The notes under the pieces: generated by a model
Told to the model about the DNA's origin: nothing
Database searches by the model: none
The model's input: the letters and a program-made list of their open reading frames with translations, nothing else
Source: Rugosibacter sp.
GTDB taxonomy: Bacteria > Pseudomonadota > Gammaproteobacteria > Burkholderiales > Rhodocyclaceae
Length of the DNA stretch: 36,728 nt
NCBI GenBank assembly: GCA_004322535.1
Contig: SCUZ01000029.1
Coordinates: 1-36,728 of the forward strand
Direction: 5' to 3'
In this document: piece by piece, positions 1,822-23,932 of the stretch
How the letters are laid out: each line of letters opens with the position of its first letter
Numbering within the stretch: the first letter of the stretch is position 1
Position numbers and translations under genes: made by a program

Positions 1822-2262
1822 CTAGGCGCGGGTAAGCGCAGCCACCATCGGCTCTGATGGCACGAGACGCTTGCTGCCATCGACATTTAGCGCAACGTAC
1901 ACCAGTTGCGCTTCGGTCACTTTGACGATCACCGGGTCTTCGGGGTGGCGTTCGGCAAACACCTGTACGTCCACCGCGATGGACGTTTTCCCGACGCGGA
2001 TAATCTGCGTATAAAAGCTCACTTGGTCGCCCACGGAAATCGGCTGCTTGAAGACGAATGAAGTAACTGCCACAGTCGCCACTCGACCGCGAGCGCGGCG
2101 TTGCGCGGCAAACCCACCGGCGATATCCACCTGCGCCATCACCCAGCCGCCAAAAATGTCGCCACCGGCATTCACATCGGACGGCATCGGCACCACGCGT
2201 AACTCCAGTGCGCCCTGTGGCGGAGCGATTAAATTTTCATTGACTTTCGTTGCAGTTGTCAT
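1822..2262 (-). CDS. YciA-like acyl-CoA thioesterase (hotdog fold)
   Basis: A 146-residue single hotdog-domain protein that should hydrolyse acyl-CoA esters to free acid and CoA in the cytoplasm. The motif NAGGDIFGGWVMAQVDIAGG near the N-terminus matches the YciA family, with the Asp of GDIFGGW as the expected catalytic residue. I chose the ATG at 2262 because AAGGAAG lies 5-6 bases upstream; an in-frame start 30 bases earlier (2292) lacks such a site. It lies in the beta-oxidation operon, between the methyltransferase and the ABC exporter, which fits a role in relieving acyl-CoA build-up. Its chain-length preference cannot be read from sequence. Confidence 0.85.
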   Translation of the reverse strand: MTTATKVNENLIAPPQGALELRVVPMPSDVNAGGDIFGGWVMAQVDIAGGFAAQRRARGRVATVAVTSFVFKQPISVGDQVSFYTQIIRVGKTSIAVDVQVFAERHPEDPVIVKVTEAQLVYVALNVDGSKRLVPSEPMVAALTRA

Positions 2263-2384
2263 AGCAGCTTCCTTGTGGCTGATTGCGATCATTCATCGAG
2301 CAGTCAGTATACAAGGTGGCGCTGGCATGCCGGGCCTCGCGCTTGTACTTCTGCTGGTACTCTTATTAAATCGCTCAGCGATGC

Positions 2385-3044
2385 TCAATCCCTGACAGCG
2401 ATACCCGTGTAAAGATAAGTGAGCAATCGCGGGCCGGGGTGATAACGCTGCGTCAGGCGATCGATCCTGAATCCGGCCGTTTGCAGTAAAGCAGGCATCT
2501 CGCGGTTAAGGTGGCACCCACCCGCGATAGTCTTCCAATAGGGCGTGATGCGATCTTGCCAGCGTCGCACGTTGTGATCCGGCGCTGCTCCGTGCTCCAG
2601 AAACAATAAGCGCCCGCCGGGCGCAAGCACCCGATGAACTTCCCTGAGTGCAGCGTCGATATCAGGAATAGTGCACAGCGTGTAAGTGGACACCACACAA
2701 TCAAAGCTGTGGTCTTGCATCGGGAGGTGCTCGGCTGAAAGCGGCACAGGATCAATAGCCAGCCCCACCGCCTTGGCCCGCTGGTCAGCTTTGGAATGCA
2801 GCCCCGGGTCAAGCCCGCACAGACAGGTCAATTTTTCCGGCTGGTAATAAGGCAAATTACGTCCCGTCCCCATGCCAATTTCCAGCACCCGGCCTGAAGC
2901 TTCTGGCAAGAGGTCAACACGACCTTGCTCAAAAGTCGGCAAGCCACAAACAAAGTCAATGACGCGCGGTAAAACATAAGTATCGTAAAAATGTTTCATG
3001 GGGTGCGCTGGTGAGACGGTGCGGAGAGACAATGAATCGCTCAT
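2385..3044 (-). CDS. Class I SAM-dependent methyltransferase (UbiE/Methyltransf_11 type)
   Basis: A 219-residue cytoplasmic methyltransferase. Motif I reads VLEIGMGTGRNLPYY (around residue 50), followed by GLDPG and later an LREVHRVLAPGGRLLFLEHG block typical of the UbiE-like superfamily. The ATG at 3044 overlaps the stop of the upstream hydratase/dehydrogenase gene as ATGA, so translation is probably coupled. A second possible start is the ATG at 2999, which gives MKHFYDTYVLPRVIDF, the usual family N-terminus; neither has a good ribosome-binding site. The substrate is unknown. Relatives include phospholipid N-methyltransferases and quinone-pathway enzymes, and its place in a fatty-acid operon does not decide between them. 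Confidence 0.82.
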   Translation of the reverse strand: MSDSLSLRTVSPAHPMKHFYDTYVLPRVIDFVCGLPTFEQGRVDLLPEASGRVLEIGMGTGRNLPYYQPEKLTCLCGLDPGLHSKADQRAKAVGLAIDPVPLSAEHLPMQDHSFDCVVSTYTLCTIPDIDAALREVHRVLAPGGRLLFLEHGAAPDHNVRRWQDRITPYWKTIAGGCHLNREMPALLQTAGFRIDRLTQRYHPGPRLLTYLYTGIAVRD

Positions 3045-4984
3045 TTCGTATCGAGATGCTGTGCGCAGTAATTCATCGGCCCGCCAGTGTACGGCGCAAA
3101 GCCGGTGCCGAAGATGACGCCGGCATCGGCGAGATCTGCGTCTTGCACCACGCCTGCGGCCACGCGTTCGGCGGTGGCGGCAAGCAGCGGCTTGAGCAGC
3201 CGTTGCATCAAGCCAGGGGGAACAATGTCTGCAGGCGTTTTTTGCGCTTGCCCTGTCATCCACACGTAAAAACCCTGTCCGCTTTTTTTACCCAGGTGGC
3301 CTGCGGCGACCAACTCCCCCAGCTTCTTTGGCTGCATCTCTGCGGCGACCAGTTGCCGACCCACGGCGAGTGCGATATCGAGGCCCACGGTATCGGCCAG
3401 TTCAATCGGCCCCATTGGCATGCCAAAGGCCAGCGCGGCGGCATCGATGGTTTCCGGCGCGATGCCTTCATCAACGCAACGCATGGCTTCGTTGAGATAA
3501 GGCGCGAGCACGGCATTCACCAAAAAGCCCGGCGCATCTTTCACGGGCAGCGGCAGCTTGTCTATCTGGCGCACGAAGGCTGCGGCCTGCTGCGCGGCAA
3601 AGCTTGACGTGACATCACTTGCCACCACTTCGACAAGCGGCATCTGCGCCACGGGATTAAAGAAGTGTATGCCCACTAGTCGCCCCGGCTGTTGTAACGC
3701 ACTGGCGATATCCGCCAGCCGCAATGATGACGTGTTAGATGCCAGCAGCGCTTCCGGTTTGGCGCGGCGCTCAAGATCGGCAAACAGTTTTTGCTTGGCT
3801 TCGAGGTTTTCGAAAATCGCTTCGATGACGACATCGGCCTGGCGCACGCCGTCGCCGTGCGGATCGGCAATCAACCGATCAAGCGCAAAATGCGCGGCCG
3901 TTTTATCGCGCAGCTTTTTCTCGAACAGCAGCGCTGCGCGGGCAATGGCCGGGGCAATGCGTTCCACGTTTTGATCCTGCAAAGTGACCGTCAGGCCCGA
4001 CAAGGCGCACCAGGCGGCGATGTCGCCTCCCATGACGCCCGCGCCGACGACATGCACATGGCGTGGAATAAAGCTGGGCGCTTCTTTGCCGAAACCCTTG
4101 AGCCGCTCCTGTAAAAAGAATACGCGTAACAGATTTTTTGTCGTGGGTGACGTAATCAGCGCGTCGAGCGATGTGGGTTTTTCTGTCGCCACGAGCAGCG
4201 CATTGCCACCGTAATGCGCCCACATGTCGAGAATGGCATACGGCGCGGGATAGTGTTCCGGCCGTGCGCGGCGGGCGACTTGTTTTCTTGCTTGCGCGGC
4301 AACGATGCTTTTTAACGGGCCATTCAGCAATCGCTGAAAAAACGACAACGTGTGCGGCGGCTGGCCAGAATTCACCAGCATGTGCGCAGCATTGTCCATT
4401 ACGCGCGGCGGCACGCAGACATCCGCCAATCCCATTTTTTGTGCGCGGCGCGCGTCGATGCTCTTGCCCGTGAGCATCATGTCCAGCGCCGCAGCAGCGC
4501 CGACTTTTTGCGGCAGGCGCAACATGCCGCCCCAGCCAGGCACGATGCCCAGCATCACTTCCGGCAGGGCGATTTTGGTTTGCGCTTCATCCACCGCAAT
4601 GCGATAGCGGCAGGCCAGCGCCAGTTCCGTGCCGCCACCCAGACAATGCCCGCGGATCAACGCCAGCGTCGGGTAAGCCACAATCGCCAGCCGGTTATAT
4701 AAATCCCAGCCGCGCTTGATCAGCGCATGGGCTGCCGCACCTGAATCAAGCCGGGCTAATTCCTCGATGTCCGCTCCGGCGATGAAACCCGCCGCCTTGC
4801 CGGATTTGAAAATCAGCGCTCTCGGCACTTGCCGGTCGCACTCGTCAAGCAGCGTAGTGAGCTCTGCCATCACCTCGGCAGTCAGCACATTGGTAGATGC
4901 GTTTTGACGATCAAGAATCGCCCAGGCCGTGCCGTCGGCATCGCGTTGCAGTTTCCAATGAACGAGGTTGGTTAGCGTGTTCAT
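3041..4984 (-). CDS. FadB/FadJ-like enoyl-CoA hydratase / 3-hydroxyacyl-CoA dehydrogenase
   Basis: A 647-residue bifunctional beta-oxidation enzyme. The N-terminal crotonase domain has the oxyanion-hole region FIAGADIEEL (67-76) and the two acidic residues expected for hydration, Glu120 in HCLGGGTELAL and Glu142 in ALPEVMLGIVPGWGG. The C-terminal dehydrogenase domain begins with a Rossmann motif VVGAGVMGGDIA (from residue 312) and has catalytic His440 in VGIHFFNPV. The length is somewhat shorter than E. coli FadB (729). The ATG at 4984 shares one base with the thiolase stop (TGATG) and has GGAGG upstream, so the two subunits of the trifunctional complex are translated in tandem. Its own stop overlaps the methyltransferase start. 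Confidence 0.93.
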   Translation of the reverse strand: MNTLTNLVHWKLQRDADGTAWAILDRQNASTNVLTAEVMAELTTLLDECDRQVPRALIFKSGKAAGFIAGADIEELARLDSGAAAHALIKRGWDLYNRLAIVAYPTLALIRGHCLGGGTELALACRYRIAVDEAQTKIALPEVMLGIVPGWGGMLRLPQKVGAAAALDMMLTGKSIDARRAQKMGLADVCVPPRVMDNAAHMLVNSGQPPHTLSFFQRLLNGPLKSIVAAQARKQVARRARPEHYPAPYAILDMWAHYGGNALLVATEKPTSLDALITSPTTKNLLRVFFLQERLKGFGKEAPSFIPRHVHVVGAGVMGGDIAAWCALSGLTVTLQDQNVERIAPAIARAALLFEKKLRDKTAAHFALDRLIADPHGDGVRQADVVIEAIFENLEAKQKLFADLERRAKPEALLASNTSSLRLADIASALQQPGRLVGIHFFNPVAQMPLVEVVASDVTSSFAAQQAAAFVRQIDKLPLPVKDAPGFLVNAVLAPYLNEAMRCVDEGIAPETIDAAALAFGMPMGPIELADTVGLDIALAVGRQLVAAEMQPKKLGELVAAGHLGKKSGQGFYVWMTGQAQKTPADIVPPGLMQRLLKPLLAATAERVAAGVVQDADLADAGVIFGTGFAPYTGGPMNYCAQHLDTK

Positions 4985-7525: not shown

Positions 7526-9907
7526 CTAATCGTGCGCTGCCACCGAAAAATCAGGTGGGAAATCATCCACGCGAATCACTTTATCGCGCAGATCATAACG
7601 GCGCGTAACCAGCGCGGCTTCTGCAGCGGTCAACGTGCCTGCCTGTTGGGCATGGCGCAGGCGTTCGCGTTCGTTATTTGCCACGTGGTTCGCTGCACTT
7701 CTCATCGCTGCTGGCATATCCACCGCCACACGAGCGCCGACTTTTCCCGCATCCTCCGCGCGCAGCGCAGCACGCAATTTCGCCTCGACAGGTTCCGCCG
7801 CAAGCGTTGCTTCCAGCGCCAGCTCAATAACACCAACTGCATCGTTCATCGCTTCAGCCTCGTTTTGCGGCAAATACATGCCCGCCGTCAGCCGGTCGCG
7901 CGTGGAGGAAGGTTCGATCAGGCACTTCGCCACATCATGCCCCAGCGCGTCCGACGGCACCACATACGGACTGCCCAGCGGAAAAATAATCCGCGCCAGA
8001 AACCACGCCACAGCCTTGTTCGGAAAGTTGGCAAGCACGCCTTCAAACGCATTTTGCGCCTTGAACATCGCATCCCAAATCGCCCAATGCACTAGAGGCG
8101 CATCGGCGCTTTGGCGGCCTTCATCCTCGAAACGCTTGAGCGTGGCCGAGGCCAGATACATCAGTGACAAAATATCGCCCAGCCGCGCCGAGAGCTTTTC
8201 GCGACGCTTCAAACCCCCGCCCAGCACCAGCATCGAGACATCAGAAAGAAACGCAAACGCTGCTGAAAAACGCGTGAGCTGCTGAAAATAACGCTTCGTT
8301 TCCGGTGCTGAATTTTCCGGCACGCCGACAAAATGTGAACCGGTGAGCCCCAGCCAGACAGTGCGCAACGCGTTGCGCATGGCGAATCCGACATGGCCAA
8401 TCAACGCCGCATCGAATGCGCGCAAACCGGCCCTGGCATCCCTGTTTTGAGTCGCCTGCATTTCACTCAATACATACGGATGGCAACGGATCGCGCCCTG
8501 GCCGAAGATGATAAGGCTGCGCGTGAGAATGTTTGCGCCTTCAACCGTGATGGCAATGGGAATCTGCTGGTAAGCGCGGCCCATGAAGTTGCTGGGGCCC
8601 AGGCAAATGCCCTTGCCGCCAAGGATGTCCATCGCATCATTCACCACCTGCCGGGCACGTTCAGTGACGTGATATTTGACAATTGCCGAGGCCACCGATG
8701 GGTGCTCGCCAAGATCTACCGCGCCGGCGGTCATCATGCGCGCCGCGTCCATCAAATAAGTGTTGCCACCCATGCGCACCAGCGCTTCTTCGATGCCTTC
8801 GAATTTGCCAATTGCCAAGTTGAACTGGCTGCGCACCCGCGCATAGCCGCCCGTGGCGCGCACCGCCAGCTTGGCCATGCCCGTGCTGGATGAGGGCAGC
8901 GAAATTGAGCGCCCTGCCGCCAGGCATTCCATCAGCATGCGCCAGCCCTGACCGGCCATCTGTGGTCCGCCGATGATCCAGCTAAGCGGCATGAACACAT
9001 TTTCGCCTGAGTTCGGCCCGTTCTGGAATACGGCGTTCAACGGCCAATGGCGACGGCCGATATTCACGCCGGGATGATTGCTTGGCACCAGCGCGCAGGT
9101 AATGCCAATGTCCTCGACATCGCCCAGCAGATGATCCGGGTCGTGCAGATGAAACGCCAGGCCGAGGAGCGTGCACACCGGCCCCAGCGTGATGTAGCGT
9201 TTCTCCCAGGTGACGCGCATGCCGATCACCTGCTGCCCCTGCCATTCGCCCATGCAGACGATGCCGGTGTCGGGAATCGCTGCCGCGTCCGAACCGGCAT
9301 GCGGATTGGTCAGCGCAAAGGCGGGGACTTCAAGCCCTTTGGCCAAGCGGGGCAGATAATGATCTTTTTGAGCTTCCGTGCCGTAACGCAGCAGCAACTC
9401 GGCTGGACCCAGCGAATTGGGTACCATTACCGAAACCGCAGCGGCAGATGATCGCGTGGACAATTTTTGCACCACCTGCGAATGCGCATAAGCCGAAAAT
9501 TCCAGCCCGCCATAGCGACGCGGGATGATCATGCCGAGAAAGCCCTTGTCCTTGACGAACTGCCACGCAGTGGGCGACAGATCGTGGTGAATCTGCGTCG
9601 CCTCCCAATCATTGGCCAGGCGACACAACTCGGCACATTCGGTATCGAGAAAAGACTGCTCGGCAGGCGTAAGCTTCGGTGCCGGATAAGCCAGTAACTT
9701 CGCCCAGCGCGGCTTGCCCGAAAACAGCTCGCCCTCCCACCACACTGTGCCCGCGGCAAGCGCGTCGCTTTCGGTTTGCGACATCCTTGGCAGAATTTTT
9801 CTGTACAACGCAAATACCGGGCCGGTGATCACCAGCCGCCGCAGGCCGGGCAAGCCAAACACGGCAATGACGATTGCCCCGACAGAGATTAACAGCAGCC
9901 AGAACAT
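7526..9907 (-). CDS. fadE: FadE-type long acyl-CoA dehydrogenase
   Basis: A 793-residue acyl-CoA dehydrogenase of the large FadE type. The N-terminus has one or two hydrophobic stretches (residues 1-40), the central dehydrogenase domain contains [13 protein letters not shown] and the catalytic base Glu456 in [20 protein letters not shown], and a long C-terminal domain (DUF1974) is present up to [15 protein letters not shown]. It makes the first oxidation in fatty-acid beta-oxidation and passes electrons to ETF. The ATG at 9907 follows GGAGGAGA with good spacing. It is the first gene of the seven-gene minus-strand operon; a perfect hairpin lies just upstream. Confidence 0.95.
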
Positions 9908-12218: not shown

Positions 12219-12234
12219 TAAAGGAGTGACTATC

Positions 12235-12567
12235 ATGCACCGCAAAATCTTTCTAGCAACGCTGGCTGCGCTTTCTGTAACCACCATCAGCAGCGTGTAT
12301 GCTGCCAAGAGCATCGAAAACGATGCGTTGGCAATTGAATCTGCGAAAATCAGCCTGACACAAGCCATCACCACGGCCGAGCAACATGTAAGTGGTAAGG
12401 CGGCTCGCGCCGAATTTGAAAAGCACAAGGGGCAGTGGCTCTTTGATGTCGAAGTAGTGAATGGCAAAAAAGTCATGGACGTGAAAGTTGATTCAATGAA
12501 CGGCAAAGTTATCTCAGCCGTTGAGGATAAAACCGATAAAGACGATGACCACGACCAGGCTGATTGA
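12235..12567 (+). CDS. Small secreted PepSY-domain protein
   Basis: A 110-residue periplasmic protein. Residues 1-23 form a signal peptide (MHRKIFLATLAALSVTTISS, then VYA before the cut). The rest is one PepSY domain: a helix with SLTQAITTAEQHVSGKA, then strands QWLFDVEVVNGKKVMDVKVD and a GKVISA end. The C-terminal tail is very acidic (DKTDKDDDHDQAD) and might bind cations. I chose the ATG at 12235, with AGGAG eight to nine bases upstream, over a GTG nine bases earlier. Small PepSY proteins often sit beside two-component systems that sense envelope or metal stress; here the sensor genes are 1.5 kb downstream on the same strand. A clear terminator follows, so it may be transcribed alone. Confidence 0.85.
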   Translation: MHRKIFLATLAALSVTTISSVYAAKSIENDALAIESAKISLTQAITTAEQHVSGKAARAEFEKHKGQWLFDVEVVNGKKVMDVKVDSMNGKVISAVEDKTDKDDDHDQAD

Positions 12568-12584
12568 TTCATCGAGCCATTACC

Positions 12585-12617
12585 AAAACCTGGGGCGGCG
12601 ATACTGCCCCAGGTTTT
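12585..12617 (+). terminator. Rho-independent terminator after the PepSY gene
   Basis: A perfect 12-bp stem, AAAACCTGGGGC paired with GCCCCAGGTTTT, around a nine-base loop. The stem itself ends in a TTTT run, and the A-run on the other side makes it usable in both directions. It begins 18 bases after the PepSY stop. Confidence 0.8.
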
Positions 12618-12702
12618 ACCTGCACTTAAAATCGCTTGTCTTGCTCTATGGTCGGCTGATAAACGCCACAACAGCATAAGCTGTGAAAAAGAGAGAAAAT
12701 CC

Positions 12703-13461
12703 ATGAACAATACTTCCGCAAACACGTTGAGCAAAGTACCAGAAGTGACCTTGCTCTTCTGGGTCATCAAGATCGCCGCGACGACACTGGGTGAAACTGC
12801 AGGCGATGCGGTGTCGATGTCAATGAACTTGGGCTATTTATTGGGGACCGCTATTTTTTCCGCGATTTTTTTGGTCGCCGTGATTGCTCAAATCAGGGCA
12901 AAGGGCTTTCATCCCTTCTTGTATTGGACCACCATCATCGCCACAACAACTGTCGGCACGACACTTGCTGACTTTGCTGACCGCTCGCTGGGAATCGGTT
13001 ATGCCGGAGGAACGTCCTTATTGCTCGCGTTATTGATGGCCTCATTGTTGATCTGGTATCGGTCACTCGGCTCGATAGCTGTTGAGACCGTCAGCTCTTC
13101 CAAGGCGGAAATGTTCTACTGGGTGACAATCATGTTTTCACAAACGCTGGGAACAGCCCTAGGAGACTGGACCGCCGATACGGCCGGGCTAGGCTACGCT
13201 AGTAGCGCAATGATATTCAGTGCCTCGCTCGCACTCATCGTTGCGATCTATGTCTGGACGAGTTTATCCCGTACTTTATTGTTCTGGGCTGCCTTCATTC
13301 TGACGCGTCCGCTAGGTGCAGTGGTTGGTGATTTTCTCGACAAACCAGTAGCTGCGGGTGGCCTGGCATTGAGCCGCTATTCAGCCTCGATGGCACTCCT
13401 GGTTTTCATCGTAATCTGTATTATGTTTTCAAAACAACGAGCAGCAGCCAAGAGGCACTGA
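12703..13461 (+). CDS. DUF347 (COG4705) four-repeat membrane protein, copy A
   Basis: A 252-residue integral membrane protein of the COG4705 family, made of DUF347 repeats; the biochemical role is not known to me. Four repeats can be lined up by a core T-[LV]-G-x-x-x-x-D: TTLGETAGD (27-35), TTVGTTLAD (82-90), QTLGTALGD (147-155) and RPLGAVVGD (202-210). The aspartates fall at 35, 90, 155 and 210, that is 55, 65 and 55 residues apart, so the protein looks like a duplicated pair of pairs. Each repeat sits in a hydrophobic helix, which would place four acids inside the membrane, as expected for a cation or proton pathway (inference). GAGAG precedes the ATG. A close paralogue is at 23171-23932. 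Confidence 0.85.
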   Translation: MNNTSANTLSKVPEVTLLFWVIKIAATTLGETAGDAVSMSMNLGYLLGTAIFSAIFLVAVIAQIRAKGFHPFLYWTTIIATTTVGTTLADFADRSLGIGYAGGTSLLLALLMASLLIWYRSLGSIAVETVSSSKAEMFYWVTIMFSQTLGTALGDWTADTAGLGYASSAMIFSASLALIVAIYVWTSLSRTLLFWAAFILTRPLGAVVGDFLDKPVAAGGLALSRYSASMALLVFIVICIMFSKQRAAAKRH

Positions 13462-13502
13462 TACCACTGGAGATACGCGGATTTCCTCATTAAGGAACGC
13501 AT

Positions 13503-14099
13503 TTGGAACATTTCAATCAAGCGCTTTTTCTGATCCTAAACGCTGCACCAGGGAGCGCCAACGTTAATATTTATGTCGCAAGGGTTATGGCGGAATATCC
13601 GATTTGGCTCATTCCCGTAGCGTTGATCTTTGGCTGGCTATATGGAACTTATACCATCCGCCAACAACTGATCGTGGCCATTATTTCCGGCTTTACAGGT
13701 CTGCTGATTAATCAGATCATTGGCTGGCTTTGGTATCATCCCCGCCCTTTCGAAATGGGAATCGGTCATACATTCATCTCACATGTGCAGGACAGTTCTT
13801 TCCCTAGCGACCACCTGACTTTTATCTGGGCTTTTGCATTTAGCCAGCTTCTGCATCGAAAAACTAGTTTCGCAGGATGGACGTTCGCTCTATTAGGCCT
13901 GCCGGTGGCCTGGGCGCGCATTTATCTGGGCATTCATTTTCCACTGGATATCCTTGGTGCCGTGTTTGTCGCTTTGAGCAGTAGCTGGCTGATCTCGCGG
14001 CAAGAGCATCGCCTCATCGAACCCTTAATAGGTCTGCTGCTACGAATCTATCAGGTGCTATTTGCCAGATTGATTCGAAGAGGTTGGGTACGACAATGA
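13503..14099 (+). CDS. PAP2-family phosphatase, BcrC/UppP-like
   Basis: A 198-residue membrane phosphatase with about five to six hydrophobic segments. The PAP2 motifs are WYHPRPF (RP at 81-82), SFPSDHLTF (PSDH at 101-104) and ARIYLGIHFPLD (Arg139, His145, Asp149). PSDH rather than PSGH is typical of BcrC-type undecaprenyl-diphosphate phosphatases, which recycle the lipid carrier of cell-wall synthesis at the periplasmic face. The lysine usually found seven residues before the first-motif Arg is not seen. The start is a TTG at 13503, supported by AAGGA six bases upstream. It lies 41 bp after the DUF347 gene and 25 bp before the response regulator, so it is probably in one operon with them. 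Confidence 0.85.
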   Translation: MEHFNQALFLILNAAPGSANVNIYVARVMAEYPIWLIPVALIFGWLYGTYTIRQQLIVAIISGFTGLLINQIIGWLWYHPRPFEMGIGHTFISHVQDSSFPSDHLTFIWAFAFSQLLHRKTSFAGWTFALLGLPVAWARIYLGIHFPLDILGAVFVALSSSWLISRQEHRLIEPLIGLLLRIYQVLFARLIRRGWVRQ

Positions 14100-14124
14100 A
14101 TCATTTCAGATACAGCGATTAGTG

Positions 14125-14784
14125 ATGCGTATTTTGCTGGTAGAAGATGACTCCATGATTGGCGAAGCAATATCTGTCGCACTCAAGGATGCGGCCTATG
14201 CCGTGGATTGGGTGAAAGACGGCGCTGCGGCAAGCAACACATTAGGGTACGGCGAGCACCAAGTCGTGCTGCTCGATCTTGGCTTGCCCAAGCGCGACGG
14301 CCTGCAAGTCCTACACCGTCTACGCCAGGCGAATAACCAGATTCCGGTAATCATCATCACTGCACGCGACGGCGTGGAAGATCGCATCAAAGGACTGGAT
14401 CTCGGTGCAGATGATTACCTGGTTAAGCCCTTCGACATTCATGAGCTGCTTGCCAGGTTGCGTGCAATCATCCGCCGTCATGGTGGCCAAGCGGCACCGA
14501 TTTTTTCTAATGGAATCATCAGCCTCGACCCGGCAACGCGCGAAGTGCGACGCGGCAATGTAGCAGAGGTGCTAAGCGCTCGCGAATTTGCCTTGCTGCA
14601 TGCGCTACTGCTGCGGCCGGGGAGGATTCTCACCCGGACCGAACTGGAAGAACGAATTTACGGCTGGAACGAGGAAGTGGAAAGCAATGCGGTTGATTTT
14701 CTGATACACGGCGTGCGCAAGAAACTGGGTGCCGATGCCATCAAGAATGTACGCGGCGCTGGCTGGATGGTCGAGAAATCATAA
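14125..14784 (+). CDS. OmpR-family response regulator (QseB/PmrA-like)
   Basis: A 219-residue regulator. The receiver domain starts MRILLVEDDSMIGEAI with the acidic pair at 8-9, the phosphorylated residue is Asp51 in VVLLDLGLPKRDG, and the conserved Lys is in DDYLVKPFD. The C-terminal winged helix contains LSAREFALLHALLLRPGRIL and VDFLIHGVRKKLG. It resembles QseB and PmrA (BasR), which act in envelope modification in other proteobacteria. A GTG three bases before the ATG is an alternative start. The stop TAA shares one base with the kinase start (TAATG), so the two are translationally coupled. The 11-bp direct repeat at 12160-12181 is a candidate target. Confidence 0.93.
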   Translation: MRILLVEDDSMIGEAISVALKDAAYAVDWVKDGAAASNTLGYGEHQVVLLDLGLPKRDGLQVLHRLRQANNQIPVIIITARDGVEDRIKGLDLGADDYLVKPFDIHELLARLRAIIRRHGGQAAPIFSNGIISLDPATREVRRGNVAEVLSAREFALLHALLLRPGRILTRTELEERIYGWNEEVESNAVDFLIHGVRKKLGADAIKNVRGAGWMVEKS

Positions 14785-16103
14785 TGAAGCGCTCCCTGCA
14801 ACGGCGGCTTACGTTGATACTGGGCAGTGCCATATTGCTGTCCAGTCTTATCGCAGCTGTGGCGTCTTTCATCCTCGCCTATGCTGAAGCAAAAGAATTT
14901 CAGGACGATATCCTGCGACAGACTGCGTTGCTAGCAACGCGCAATATCGGCATTTCTGTACAGATGAATATGCGCGAAAAAAATCGGACCAAGGCCGCCT
15001 TGGTCACCTTGGGCGATTCTGAATCACGCATCAGTGTGATTCGCTTACCAGACGATCCTCGTCCCGTTTGGCTTACGGGCGATTTATCATCCGGCTTTCA
15101 TACGCTTGAGGCTGGCGGCGAACCTCTCAGGTTGTTCGTGCAGAGAAGCCTCTCTGGCAAGACAACCGTGGTGGCCCAGTCGACAGATACGCGTGACGAA
15201 ATTGCAATTCACAGCGCCCTGCGTACACTTATTCCCCTGCTGATGCTGTTGCCCGTGATGGCGTGGCTGATCGTGCGTATCGTCCGCAGCGAACTTGCGC
15301 CCGTCAATGATCTGGCCAGTCATCTGGATGCGCAACCGGCGGATCGGCCTCGCCCCCTTTCAGACGAGGGAGTTCCGGACGAAATAACGCCCTTTGTTCA
15401 TGCCATCAATCACCTGCTCAAACGTGTCAGTGATTTGATGATTCAACAACGACGCTTTATCGCCGATGCTGCCCACGAACTCCGCAGCCCGCTAACCGCA
15501 CTATCAATACAAGTGCAAAATCTGAAACAAGCCGGATCACTGGAAAACATGCGTGACCGCGTTCTGCCGCTACAGGCGGGTATCGAAAGAGTACGACAAC
15601 TGACGGAGCAACTTTTAAACCTTGCCAGAACTCAAGCAGGTGCGTTAGAAAACAAGGAAGTCGATGTCTCGACGATGGCTCGAGAACTGATTGCGGAATA
15701 CCTCCCGATGGCGGAGGCGAAAGGCATCGATTTGGGACTCGACGAGATTGAGCCGCTTAGGCTAACTTCTGCGCCGGAAACACTGCGACTAGTACTTAAA
15801 AATGCACTGGATAACGCATTGAAATATGTTCCCGAAGGCGGCGAGGTCACCCTCAGGCTTTATGCGAATGACACTAATGCGATCATCGAGATCGTCGACA
15901 ATGGCCCCGGCGTTCCTGTCGCCGAACGACAACGTGTGTTCAATCCATTTTATCGGCTGACAGAGACAACCGGCGAGGGCAGCGGGCTGGGACTCGCCAT
16001 TGCAGCAGAAGCTGCGGCAAGTCTTGGTGGGCGCATAAGCCTGCTGGATGGGCCTGAAAGTCGCGGGTTGGTCTTTCGCTACCAGCAGAGCCGCAACACA
16101 TGA
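14784..16103 (+). CDS. Sensor histidine kinase (QseC/PmrB-like)
   Basis: A 439-residue membrane kinase. Helix 1 is at about residues 10-32, a periplasmic sensor part of about 110 residues follows, and helix 2 is at about 146-166. The phosphorylated residue is His231 in FIADAAHELRSPLTALS. The ATP-binding part has an N-box LVLKNALDNALKYVP, and VDNGPGVP and GEGSGLGLAIA glycine motifs. It should phosphorylate the regulator encoded just upstream. The periplasmic part is not obviously acidic enough to call it an iron or polymyxin sensor. Its stop overlaps the original dedA start as ATGA. Confidence 0.93.
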   Translation: MKRSLQRRLTLILGSAILLSSLIAAVASFILAYAEAKEFQDDILRQTALLATRNIGISVQMNMREKNRTKAALVTLGDSESRISVIRLPDDPRPVWLTGDLSSGFHTLEAGGEPLRLFVQRSLSGKTTVVAQSTDTRDEIAIHSALRTLIPLLMLLPVMAWLIVRIVRSELAPVNDLASHLDAQPADRPRPLSDEGVPDEITPFVHAINHLLKRVSDLMIQQRRFIADAAHELRSPLTALSIQVQNLKQAGSLENMRDRVLPLQAGIERVRQLTEQLLNLARTQAGALENKEVDVSTMARELIAEYLPMAEAKGIDLGLDEIEPLRLTSAPETLRLVLKNALDNALKYVPEGGEVTLRLYANDTNAIIEIVDNGPGVPVAERQRVFNPFYRLTETTGEGSGLGLAIAAEAAASLGGRISLLDGPESRGLVFRYQQSRNT

Positions 16104-16674
16104 TCACTGCGTTCATCGCATCCTATGGTTATCTGGTTATCTCGCAATCTTCATTGGCACATTGCTTGAAGGAGAAACCATTTTGATCGCTGCCGGGTTC
16201 GCCGCTCATCGCGGCTTACTTTTCATGCCAATAGTGATTCTTGTGGCCATCGCGGGCGCAACACTGGGTGATCAGCTGGCATTCTTGCTTGGGCGCTGGA
16301 AAGGTGAAGCGTTGATTGCGCGCTTCTCCTCGCTGGCAAAACAAAAGTCGCGTGTCCATGCTTTTCTTGAGCGTTATGACCTCTTGTTCATCCTGATTGT
16401 TCGTTTTCTTTACGGATTGCGCATTGCTGGTCCGGTGATCTTGGGATCAAGCCAGGTACCGCTGCTTCGCTTTACAGCACTCAACCTCATAGGCGCCGCC
16501 ATGTGGGCGATACTCATCTCTGGTGCCGGATATGCCTTTGGTCTAGCTATCAGCTCCTTGATCGCCGACGTCAAGCGGATTGAAGCAATCGTGTTGATCG
16601 TCATACTCTCGCTTGGCGCAGTCTTTTGGGTGTGGCAAAGGTCTCGCGCCAGAATGGAAAAAAAGCAACCATGA
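16100..16674 (+). pseudogene. DedA-family membrane protein, frameshifted by an 8-bp tandem duplication
   Basis: The ATG at 16100 overlaps the kinase stop (ATGA) and gives MITAFIASYGYL, the expected DedA N-terminus. Then GGTTATCT occurs twice in a row (16127-16142) and throws the frame. Removing one copy gives MITAFIASYGYLAIFIGTLL and a 188-residue DedA protein to 16674, with family residues such as RFLYGLRIAGPVILG and NLIGAAMWA. As it stands, full-length protein from 16100 is not possible. A start at 16048 inside the kinase gene stays open through the DedA body, but it replaces the first 12 or so residues with unrelated ones. DedA proteins include the undecaprenyl-phosphate translocase UptA and factors needed for polymyxin resistance. 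The cause could be a real mutation, a reversible slippage or an assembly error. Confidence 0.78.
16127..16142 (+). repeat. 8-bp tandem duplication (GGTTATCT twice) inside dedA
   Basis: Two exact adjacent copies of GGTTATCT. The family-like reading frame continues only if one copy is removed, which dates the duplication as later than the gene's functional life. Confidence 0.9.
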
Positions 16675-16690
16675 AAAGAAGGGGGACGTA

Positions 16691-17110
16691 ATGTCCTGGC
16701 AACTGTTTGCGCTCGGTTCAGCATTTTTTGCAGGCTTAACAGCGATCTTCGGAAAGCTCGGGGTAGAAGGATTGAACTCCAACCTAGCGACATTGATACG
16801 CACTGTGGTGATTCTTGCAATGACCGCTGGCATCGTAACTTTTCGTGACGAGTGGCAGATGCCCCAAGCCTTGGAACCTCGCCCTATCGCGTTTCTGGTT
16901 CTGTCCGGCCTGGCGACGGGTTTCTCCTGGCTCCTCTATTACCGTGCGCTCCAACTTGCACCCGCATCAATGGTGGCTCCCATCGACAAGCTGAGCCTTG
17001 TATTTGCCGTTATGCTTGCTGTTGTATTCCTCGGCGAAGCGCTAACGGTGAAACTGGCACTCGGAGGGTTGCTCATTCTTTTTGGCGTGCTGATCCTCGC
17101 GTGGCCTTGA
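16691..17110 (+). CDS. Half-size EamA transporter (COG2510-like)
   Basis: A 139-residue, four- to five-helix membrane protein equal to one EamA domain. It starts MSWQLFALGSAFFAGLTAIF and ends with LVFAVMLAVVFLGEALTVKL and LGVLILAWP-like text, the standard end of an EamA unit (FLGE motif included). The start at 16691 has AGGGGG seven bases upstream. Such single-domain proteins work as homo- or heterodimers; examples are the ArnE/ArnF flippase and small multidrug-type exporters. It follows the dedA stop by 16 bp and is the last intact gene of the cassette. The substrate is unknown. Confidence 0.87.
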   Translation: MSWQLFALGSAFFAGLTAIFGKLGVEGLNSNLATLIRTVVILAMTAGIVTFRDEWQMPQALEPRPIAFLVLSGLATGFSWLLYYRALQLAPASMVAPIDKLSLVFAVMLAVVFLGEALTVKLALGGLLILFGVLILAWP

Positions 17111-17422: not shown

Positions 17423-18518
17423 TCAGACCTCGAAGGCATTTGTGATGTGCGCAAAATCCACCTGCAATGTATCGAAGTGCGCCTTGCCGCACTGAATCTT
17501 TGCCCATTCTGAACTGCGCAACTTCAATTGATTCTTGGTGGATTTTGTCTCGCGCACCAGATAAACCCTGGCATCATCCTCTTTCACAATCGCCCAATCC
17601 GGATTGTAAGTACCAATGGGCGTGTCGATCATGAACCATCCCGGCAACTTGATGAAAAGCTTGATGTCAGTGCGCGTACTCATTGCTTCGGCAAATTCAC
17701 GCTCGATCTCGGAATCAACGGACACCTCATCGTAGATGCTGTTTTTCACAAGTACTTGGTTCAAGTCGGAGCCAAGAATCTCGCGCTCTTCAAACAACAG
17801 CATTTCATATTCCTGCCCGCCGATTTTTTCGTACTTGATTCCGTCTATCATCAGCCCTCGCAATTCGGCCTCAATGGCCTGCTGGGCTTGCTCAAGAAAT
17901 TGCTGCGGGTTGTGCTGCACCTCATTCAGGCGACCGGAGCGTATCAGTATCTCAGCAATGGTTTTGCGAGTGAGTTCGGTTTTCGTCTGTAAATACCCCA
18001 GCAAGTCGGGGACATTGATTGTGCGATAGTCGCCCGCCTCAGCTTCACGCACGGACAACAACTGCGTACCGACATCTTCGCCGGACATGCCGATGCCACC
18101 CTTTTGAACTCTCATTCTGCTTTGCGCAATTTTGTCGCGCGCAGCTAAATTCCTGGCGGCGTGCTCCACCAACTCCGACGTTTGATAATCCACCGCATAG
18201 CGTGTCTTGTGCTTGATGCGGCCATAGCTCCTTGCAATCCTCGTTCAGCCGACAGCCTTGTTTCAACTTCGCGGTACGTACTTCCTTCTTGTTGACGATG
18301 CGCCCCTCAAACTTCACGCCGCACTCATCTTCAATTTCGGTTTGCAGCTTCGCCGCAAATTCGTCGTAGTGCTCGTTAGCAATCACCCCCATCGCTTCTC
18401 CGTTGGCAATTAGATGCCGCGCGCGGCCAACGAGCCCATCAAACCTACGCCACTGGACGTAACCCATGTCTACGTAAATAGCTCGTGCGCTAACTAGATC
18501 ACGGTCTGAACTGCTCAT
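17423..18518 (-). pseudogene. Decayed type III restriction endonuclease (Res) C-terminus with a BRO-N-like head
   Basis: The part at 17423-18220 encodes a type III Res C-terminal region, about 265 residues, ending in the nuclease signature DTPIGTYNPDWAIV and YLVRETKS (PD...ExK type). Upstream, in another frame, 18221-18518 encodes EFAAKLQTEIEDECGVKFEG and NEDCKELW, which belongs directly before RIKHKTRYAVDYQTSEL. The join at about 18221 is out of frame by one extra or two missing bases. Intact Res is near 900-1000 residues, so the helicase part is gone. The first 45 residues (SARAIYVDMGYVQWRRFDG) resemble the DinD/BRO-N domain of the neighbouring gene, not Res, so a deletion may have fused them. 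The 18518 start has a good GGGGGAG site. No Mod methylase is seen. Confidence 0.8.
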
Positions 18519-23170: not shown

Positions 23171-23932
23171 ATGAAACAGACAACAGCAGCGACTTTGAGC
23201 AAAGTCCCGGAACTGACATTGATTTTCTGGCTAATCAAGATCGCCGCCACGACGTTGGGCGAAACCGGCGGCGATGCTGTGTCGATGTCCATGAATCTGG
23301 GTTACCTGGTGAGCACTGCAATTTTCGCAGTGATTTTTCTTGCTGCAGTGGTCATCCAGATTAAGGCGCAACGTTTTCACCCTATTATTTATTGGGTGAC
23401 GATTATTGCAACCACAACGGTGGGGACAACCCTGGCGGATTTCGCAGACCGCTCACTTGGCATAGGCTACGCCGGCGGCACCGCACTTTTATTCTTGCTG
23501 CTGATGACATCTTTAGCCACCTGGTATTGGTCGCTCGGCTCGATTTCCGTGGCTAGCGTAAGCTCGCCAAAAGTAGAGATGTTTTATTGGCTCACCATCA
23601 TGTTTTCACAGACGCTGGGCACCGCGTTAGGGGACTGGACGGCAGACACGGCAGGCCTTGGATACTTTGGAGGCGCTATCGTTTTTAGCGCCCTTTTAGC
23701 CTTGGTAATAGCAGCATATTTCTGGACGAAAATTTCAAGAACCACGCTTTTCTGGACAGCATTCATACTGACACGCCCCTTGGGCGCGGTGGTTGGCGAC
23801 TTCCTTGACAAACCACTGAATGCCGGAGGTTTGGCCTTGAGTCGCTATTCAGCGTCAGCCACGCTTATCGCAGTCATCATTGCGTGTATTTTGATTTTCC
23901 CTCAGCGGACAGCAAAGGGGTCGGGGCACTGA
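23171..23932 (+). CDS. DUF347 (COG4705) four-repeat membrane protein, copy B
   Basis: A 253-residue paralogue of the protein at 12703-13461, collinear with it along nearly the whole length. The four T-[LV]-G...D cores and the aspartates at 35, 90, 155 and 210 are at the same positions. The repeat cores are almost identical between copies (for example ADFADRSLGIGYAGGT and FSQTLGTALGDWTADTAGLG), while the linking helices differ, so selection acts on the cores. AAGGA precedes the ATG. It stands 42 bp after the histidine phosphatase gene and 149 bp before glyA, outside the accessory cassette. No function is assigned. Confidence 0.85.
   Translation: MKQTTAATLSKVPELTLIFWLIKIAATTLGETGGDAVSMSMNLGYLVSTAIFAVIFLAAVVIQIKAQRFHPIIYWVTIIATTTVGTTLADFADRSLGIGYAGGTALLFLLLMTSLATWYWSLGSISVASVSSPKVEMFYWLTIMFSQTLGTALGDWTADTAGLGYFGGAIVFSALLALVIAAYFWTKISRTTLFWTAFILTRPLGAVVGDFLDKPLNAGGLALSRYSASATLIAVIIACILIFPQRTAKGSGH

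Follow-up and report, generated by a model that had tools for sequence, protein, structure and literature searches.

Described mmf and DUF347 systems

The closest described relative of the locus analysed here is the mmf cluster of Tn6048, a transposon of the Tn5053 family (PMC6210171), known from Cupriavidus metallidurans and from pMOL98, pHB44, and pBS64. The gene lists of plasmids pBYT5-3 and pJAB4138 are those of this cluster (PMC4914505, PMC12029693). Their order is PepSY, undecaprenyl-diphosphatase, DUF347, small protein, DUF347, regulator, kinase, and EamA, flanked by recombinase and transposition genes. Both papers term MmfC, the DUF347 product, a putative MFS permease. The mmf cluster is described as "upregulated in the presence of Pb and Zn" in C. 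metallidurans (PMC12029693). Its function was termed unknown in 2010 and again in 2025. Growth of C. gilardii NOV2-1, which carries mmf, and of the type strain, which is without it, was equal in the presence of Cd, Co, and Zn (PMC12029693), a result that counts against a transporter.

Two phenotypes have been linked to mmf plasmids. In Variovorax bearing pHB44, growth improved when no iron was added and suffered at 5 and 50 uM, which the authors took as import; the plasmid was tested as a whole, not the DUF347 gene (PMC4914505). Bacitracin resistance was conferred by pHB44 and by pMBUI8 and was tentatively credited to mmfB, pMBUI8 carrying only mmfA and mmfB; no bacitracin effect could be demonstrated for pBS64, the host of which was already resistant (PMC4914505). 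In Frankia, three UppP-DUF347 operons were upregulated with lead, and export combined with phosphate precipitation was proposed (PMC4531530). DUF347 also occurs in microalgae (PMC9756366).

The first-pass annotation of the locus knew of no function for the family. This stands insofar as no function has been established, but it overlooked papers that propose DUF347 to be a metal transporter (PMC4531530, PMC9756366) or place it in mmf (PMC4914505). A full-text literature search, which had most subscription papers outside it, returned no study in which a DUF347 protein had been assayed for transport or resistance. PMC11952213, PMC13192273, PMC4290620, PMC8069873, PMC8999054, and PMC3384475 contributed no information about function, and the matches in PMC8069873 and PMC8999054 were to DUF3470.

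An mmf-like cluster in the window

To judge from its sequence, the gene at 12703-13461 of the window (the whole stretch of DNA analysed, 36,728 nt) belongs to a chromosomal mmf-like cluster, as its MmfC2-type member. The features are as follows.

12226-12567, plus strand: small PepSY protein whose C-terminal tail is acidic and contains His (MmfA counterpart); Pfam PepSY, E 3.7e-11; 54% identical to the MmfA type
12585-12617, no strand assigned: perfect inverted repeat between the PepSY and DUF347 genes, terminator-like, ending in TTTT; RNA fold
12703-13461, plus strand: DUF347 protein, 252 aa, counterpart of MmfC2 of Tn6048; Pfam PF03988 in four stretches, E 6.9e-61
13503-14099, plus strand: PAP2-type phosphatase, undecaprenyl-diphosphatase-like (MmfB counterpart); Pfam PAP2, E 7.5e-13; 52% identical to the MmfB type
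14122-14784, plus strand: OmpR-type response regulator (MmfR counterpart); Pfam Response_reg and Trans_reg_C; 64% identical to the MmfR type
14784-16103, plus strand: sensor histidine kinase (MmfS counterpart); Pfam HisKA and HATPase_c; 40% identical to the MmfS type
16048-16674, plus strand: DedA/VTT-family membrane protein with a disturbed start region; Pfam VTT_dom, E 8.9e-18; without a Tn6048-type counterpart
16685-17110, plus strand: small EamA-family membrane protein (cluster eamA); Pfam EamA, E 3e-21; 47% identical to the cluster EamA
23171-23932, plus strand: second DUF347 protein (253 aa), sharing 74% identity with the first; PF03988 in four stretches, alignment

The neighbours named by the first-pass annotation (a PepSY protein, a lipid-carrier phosphatase, and a two-component system) were thus recovered by Pfam beside the DUF347 gene, and a second DUF347 copy was present as well. 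Six mmf counterparts (PepSY, UppP-like, MmfC2, MmfR, MmfS, and EamA) lay within 12226-17110 and were 40-78% identical to the pBYT5-3 set, the highest value being that of the DUF347 protein itself (78% to the MmfC2-type protein of pBYT5-3). Both DUF347 proteins of the window were nearer to MmfC2 (77-78%) than to MmfC1 (33-34%), so that no copy of the divergent MmfC1 type was present in the window; MmfD had no match there by tblastn at E ≤ 1e-4. The gene order also differed: PepSY-UppP-C1-D-C2 in Tn6048 versus PepSY-C2-UppP in the window, which in addition has the dedA gene, the terminator-like hairpin after the PepSY gene, and, at a distance of 10 kb, the second C2 copy. No transposase was found among the 18 window proteins scanned by Pfam. 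The PAP2 protein scored 155.5 bits with the NCBIfam undecaprenyl-diphosphate phosphatase model, under the cut-off of 229.

The inverted repeat was not listed by the pattern scan of the window. The RNA fold of 12568-12640 had an energy of -27 kcal/mol (z = -4.56), and none of 200 shuffles was equally stable. Because this terminator-like repeat follows the PepSY gene, the latter may form a separate transcript. An acidic and often His-containing tail was found in many PepSY relatives (22 listed, a few without it) and is possibly a metal site.

The second DUF347 copy lies approximately 10 kb from the first, is flanked by histidine-phosphatase and SHMT genes, and had no two-component pair beside it. 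In a locus of the same genus (L045), the interval between these two genes holds instead a C-5 cytosine methylase gene and an HNH endonuclease gene (2169-3730), and the interval is possibly an insertion hot spot.

Compared with L045, the start region of the window dedA gene (16101-16160) shows an apparent 8-base tandem duplication that leaves the usual start, ATG 16101, out of frame; an open frame persists from an upstream ATG inside the kinase gene. The duplication may be a real change, a phase switch, or an assembly error.

Four homologous repeats

The window protein scored 202.7 bits against PF03988 (curated cut-off, 28.2) as four tandem repeats, and the eight PF03988 repeat matches reported for the genome all fell within the two DUF347 genes. 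It is an ordinary member of the family, with no distinguishing difference. The repeats, delimited by PF03988 matches and by the helices of the predicted model, are the following.

12754-12906, plus strand: repeat 1, helices 17-40 and 44-65, Asp35 codon at 12805-12807
12919-13065, plus strand: repeat 2, helices 71-95 and 99-122, Asp90 codon at 12970-12972
13114-13263, plus strand: repeat 3, helices 133-160 and 164-185, Asp155 codon at 13165-13167
13279-13425, plus strand: repeat 4, helices 190-213 and 225-242, core P-L-G, Asp210 codon at 13330-13332

The four Asp residues lie at 35, 90, 155, and 210 of the 252-aa protein, with spacings of 55, 65, and 55, exactly as first annotated. The core given for them, T-[LV]-G-x4-D, was found in three repeats (starts at 28, 83, and 148), whereas the fourth has P-L-G-x4-D (start at 203). 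The combined pattern [TP][LV]G....D had four occurrences in the protein; no more than two were seen in any of 200,000 shuffles of its residues, and two in 14 of them.

All four repeats were mutually homologous by hhalign. The most similar pairs were 2-3 (E = 3.6e-14) and 1-2 (6.9e-11), followed by 1-3 (3.7e-8), 3-4 (2.5e-7), 1-4 (1.2e-6), and 2-4 (3.2e-5). A doubled two-repeat unit would make 1-3 and 2-4 the closest pairs, and the 2+2 symmetry seen earlier in the spacings therefore fails, repeats 2 and 4 being the least alike. The 65-residue step is a longer linker joining repeats 2 and 3.

Conservation across DUF347 relatives

Conservation was measured in 219 distinct DUF347 proteins, each 200 residues or longer, from the fetched loci. 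Identical copies, shorter fragments, and entries containing unknown residues were left out; among these were the interrupted-gene pieces L232, L240, and L241 and the very weak partial match L234, L286 (E = 2.8e-4). The Asp residues were nearly invariant: Asp35 was kept in 216 proteins (two Asn, and one gap in a truncated entry), Asp90 in 218 (one Asn), Asp155 in all 219, and Asp210 in 217 (two Asn), counts that are circular for loci L047-L126, which were fetched by patterns including the Asp of repeats 1 and 3. The motif-independent subset (n = 98) gave 95, 97, 98, and 96, respectively. The complete quartet was present in 215 of the 219 relatives, which bears out the idea of an acid in each repeat; family members lacking one or more Asp, which would have spoken against that idea, numbered four, one of them the truncated entry.

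Trp20, Trp75, Trp140, and Trp195 were kept in 218, 219, 219, and 219 proteins, and the core Gly of repeats 1 to 4 in 217, 218, 219, and 219. The core Thr was more variable (214 at position 28, 156 at position 83, and 158 at position 148, of 219), and position 203 was Pro in 218. Because Thr varies while Trp, Gly, and Asp are nearly constant, the family core is better written W-x9-G-x4-D. The most distant relative (L272, 26% identical to the window protein) kept the four Asp and the four Trp but was without Lys23, Glu31, and the Gly of repeat 2. In one clade, made up of L278 and L285 (70% identity between the two), Asn takes the place of both Asp35 and Asp210, whereas Asp90 and Asp155 were kept. 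At the level of aligned residues, what the present analysis newly adds is that the four Asp and Trp are constant throughout the family and that there is a paired-Asn clade; at the level of structure, it adds the confident eight-helix model lacking a significant Foldseek match and the hint that the ring closes.

Predicted structure, topology, and fold

Pfam describes each PF03988 repeat as two transmembrane helices with a conserved Trp. The window protein agrees with this description, with eight helices in its model, and the Trp of each repeat is nearly invariant in the 219 relatives. The AlphaFold2 model, built on a 95-sequence alignment, was confident (mean pLDDT, 91.4; pTM, 0.88) and had helices at 17-40, 44-65, 71-95, 99-122, 133-160, 164-185, 190-213, and 225-242. 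Each Asp falls in an odd-numbered helix, three to five residues before the helix end, and not outside the membrane, a placement that would have counted against the first-pass annotation. The Frankia DUF347 proteins were assigned six helices (PMC4531530), compared with the eight modelled here.

Loops and termini, with four flanking residues counted, carried 10 Lys and Arg on the side of the N and C termini versus 3 on the opposite side. By the positive-inside rule, the termini would therefore be cytoplasmic and the Asp would point toward the periplasm, probably near the periplasmic ends of the odd-numbered helices. The four repeats are parallel, provided that every one of the eight helices spans the membrane. 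A transporter of this kind must have parallel repeats, unlike the inverted repeats of many transporters, which counts against that role.

Odd helices were more conserved than even helices (3.30 versus 2.40 bits; 180 sequences). Mean-field couplings calculated from 219 sequences (130 effective) placed the helix pair 1-8 second of 28, with A25-F235 as the strongest single pair, and the four neighbouring odd-odd pairs (6.2, 5.2, 4.7, and 4.0) exceeded the two diagonals (3.6 and 3.0). The couplings thus suggest that the four hairpins close into a ring that has the odd helices on its inner side. Two results count against the ring: the highest coupling density was that of h6-h8, which is not a contact of a simple odd-even ring; and with 180 sequences the odd pair of repeats 1 and 4 (4.1) was below the diagonals (4.8 and 6.0). 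In the helical wheel, drawn to see whether the Asp residues point inward, they were 83-117 degrees off the conserved face, an angle that counts against the transporter reading; the conservation moment was not significant for helix 5 (P = 0.36) or helix 7 (P = 0.19). The register correlation of the coupling map was considered as proof of ring closure and rejected, control pairings having correlated equally well.

Four parallel repeats around an acidic site, with Asp near the outer side, would be channel-like, and such a proton or alkali-cation channel could restore membrane energy under stress. We consider this very unlikely: no re-entrant loop of the K+-filter type was seen in the model, where the motif lies within unbroken helices, and the neighbouring genes are of the metal-stress kind.

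Foldseek returned no match at E ≤ 0.001 against either the PDB or viral models, an outcome that by itself does not make the fold new. VIA-align gave partial matches, mostly of the MFS type, the best with Z = 6.6 over 126 residues of an MFS protein, a range that its note calls common. By sequence, the PDB held no convincing match; the best (E = 0.027) was chain dTor_6x35L, presumably a designed repeat protein. The likeness to MFS proteins consists of these weak partial structural matches, whereas the window protein has eight helices in four repeats, and DUF347 was its only Pfam match at E ≤ 0.01, with no MFS profile. We put forward, tentatively and as somewhat doubtful, that DUF347 is a new fold: a closed ring of four parallel hairpins whose Asp would meet on one axis near the periplasmic face and serve a metal channel or carrier as its ion site, with MmfC1 and MmfC2 possibly paired and the clade with Asn in repeats 1 and 4 possibly having another ion or a regulatory role. 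A confident model with no significant Foldseek match in the PDB makes the protein a worthwhile structural target.

Gene neighbourhoods and distribution

Partner genes were counted around DUF347 in 80 named loci (537 ORF calls within 3 kb and 504 farther away). A partner was any simple ORF call similar to the window's own proteins, a definition that misses more divergent partners. Histidine kinase-like ORFs (31 near versus 4 far) and response regulator-like ORFs (27 versus 6) were the most frequent, followed by PAP2-like (9 versus 0), PepSY-like (7 versus 0), and EamA-like (5 versus 0) ORFs. At least one partner lay within 3 kb in 36 loci and none was detected in 44, which counts against the transporter reading. 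These absences are partly due to short contigs, because the sequence ends before 3 kb on one side in 19 of the 80 loci. Plainly, the cluster partners are not obligatory for DUF347. The Pfam scan of nearest neighbours (148 of the 152 listed; two of the four omitted were from L048, a near-duplicate of L047) identified 17 response regulators, 9 PAP2 proteins, and 4 PepSY proteins.

As the commonest partners are a kinase and a regulator, and as both also follow DUF347 on a Nostoc plasmid, the protein might serve the two-component system in the membrane, as a co-sensor or as a relay of its signal, and move nothing. We hold this to be unlikely, since neither gene was found within 3 kb in 47 of the 80 loci, the second window copy is without an adjacent pair, and an accessory sensor would hardly need eight conserved helices.

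The UppP-like gene adjoins DUF347 in the window, with dedA in the same gene run; PAP2-like ORFs occurred within 3 kb in 9 of the 80 loci and never among the farther ORFs; and PAP2 was found near DUF347 on a Hymenobacter plasmid (Bacteroidota) and, together with a response regulator, within approximately 6 kb of DUF347 on a Rhodococcus plasmid (Actinomycetota). DUF347 could thus act with UppP and DedA on the lipid carrier, moving or recycling undecaprenyl phosphate when metals or peptides block it, with metal induction as a sign of envelope damage. The bacitracin resistance from pHB44 and pMBUI8 fits such a role but is tentatively that of mmfB. Moreover, 71 of the 80 loci had no PAP2 ORF within 3 kb (including loci short on one side), and four buried acids fit a cation better than a phosphate group. 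The lipid-carrier role is, in our judgment, improbable.

Several neighbourhoods were of the metal type, which, as gene settings, would support a metal-cation transporter. Cation efflux (CDF) and RND genes surround a DUF347 pair with regulator and kinase in L038, an RND gene follows the cluster in L041, and a P-type cation ATPase gene follows it in L042. DUF347 of a Pantoea plasmid is accompanied by an undecaprenyl-diphosphatase, a heavy-metal sensor kinase, a regulator, and an RND pump. No such partners were found beside the plasmid copies of Klebsiella, Acinetobacter, Cronobacter, Enterobacter cloacae, Mesorhizobium, and Rhizobium. An importer of iron or vanadium, as proposed for pHB44, would account for the iron effect on Variovorax, which counts against export. 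We regard import as quite unlikely: the effect is that of a whole plasmid, export or protection would be a better match for induction by zinc and lead, and metal-transport or efflux genes are located with DUF347 in L038, L041, L042, and Pantoea.

DUF347 was patchily distributed. It was present in 12 of 61 genomes and in 36 of 299 genomes of the phylum (own genome included in both), in 259 of 72,556 plasmid records, and in none of 14 control genomes. Four phyla were represented among plasmid records that carry it. Two or more DUF347 ORFs were found in 21 of the 80 named loci. Two divergent DUF347 genes are adjacent or one gene apart in L036, L037, and L038, as in Tn6048, the two types being 31-36% and 60-79% identical to the window protein, and they may form a pair. 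In L036, a PAP2 gene lies between the two, and regulator, kinase, and DedA-like ORFs follow.

A candidate metal-cation transporter

An ion-transport role for the window protein is plausible. The reading that we favour, to which we give about an even chance, is that it is a candidate metal-cation transporter beside a UppP-like phosphatase and under a metal-responsive two-component system. A metal-cation exporter is expected to have conserved ionisable residues in the membrane, and the four Asp in the predicted odd helices are such residues. Export is more probable than import.

The cluster could work as follows. DUF347 would be a small inner-membrane metal-cation transporter in which four parallel two-helix repeats form one unit, with the odd-numbered helices lining its interior. 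Near the periplasmic ends of these helices, the four Asp would provide a site for cation binding or release. Metal stress would turn the cluster on through the two-component system. The PepSY protein may bind periplasmic metal with its acidic tail. The UppP-like phosphatase would, together with the DedA protein, maintain recycling of the lipid carrier, and the phosphate it frees might trap the exported metal, as in the proposal for the Frankia DUF347-UppP operons. Of this scheme, the present data show the family, its repeats, the conservation of the Asp, the eight predicted helices, the kinship of the cluster, and the linkage to the regulators, and the literature supplies the induction by zinc and lead. 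The ring arrangement, the meeting of the four Asp at one site, the topology, transport itself, the ion, and its direction are all what we infer.

The PbrA/PbrB lead resistance system combines an export protein with an undecaprenyl-diphosphate phosphatase and is thought to trap metal as phosphate. Its likeness to DUF347-UppP would be one of working scheme and not of kinship, DUF347 being no P-type ATPase. The Frankia operons join DUF347 to an undecaprenyl phosphatase, as in the window, and were reported as lead-induced (PMC4531530).

DUF347 occurs in several bacterial phyla, on transposons, and on broad-host-range plasmids, within a metal-responsive set. If it is true that the four Asp form one site, the function of the family is open to single substitutions combined with a metal-content assay.

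Additional observations

In another locus of the window's genus (L041), a shortened DUF347 ORF of the first type (8427-8969, 180 aa) lies just upstream of an intact gene of the second type and appears to be a copy in decay. On an Enterobacter cloacae plasmid (L160, 5526-8765), a divergent DUF347 gene lies approximately 850 bases downstream of mcr-10.1. The possibility that the DUF347-regulator-kinase unit of IncHI2 plasmids is part of the mcr-9 cassette was rejected, as no mcr-9 was annotated within 6 kb in the one such plasmid examined. A family of proteins of approximately 346 aa was found near DUF347 in 7 of 81 loci (e.g., L097, 9589-10626), and the example scanned had a YNCE-like beta-propeller match. 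Downstream of the cluster, an ORF on the minus strand of the window (17423-18193) ends in a Pfam RE_endonuc domain (E = 3.8e-37) and is overlapped by an ORF with no Pfam match (18045-18518); together they look like the remnant of a restriction enzyme gene.
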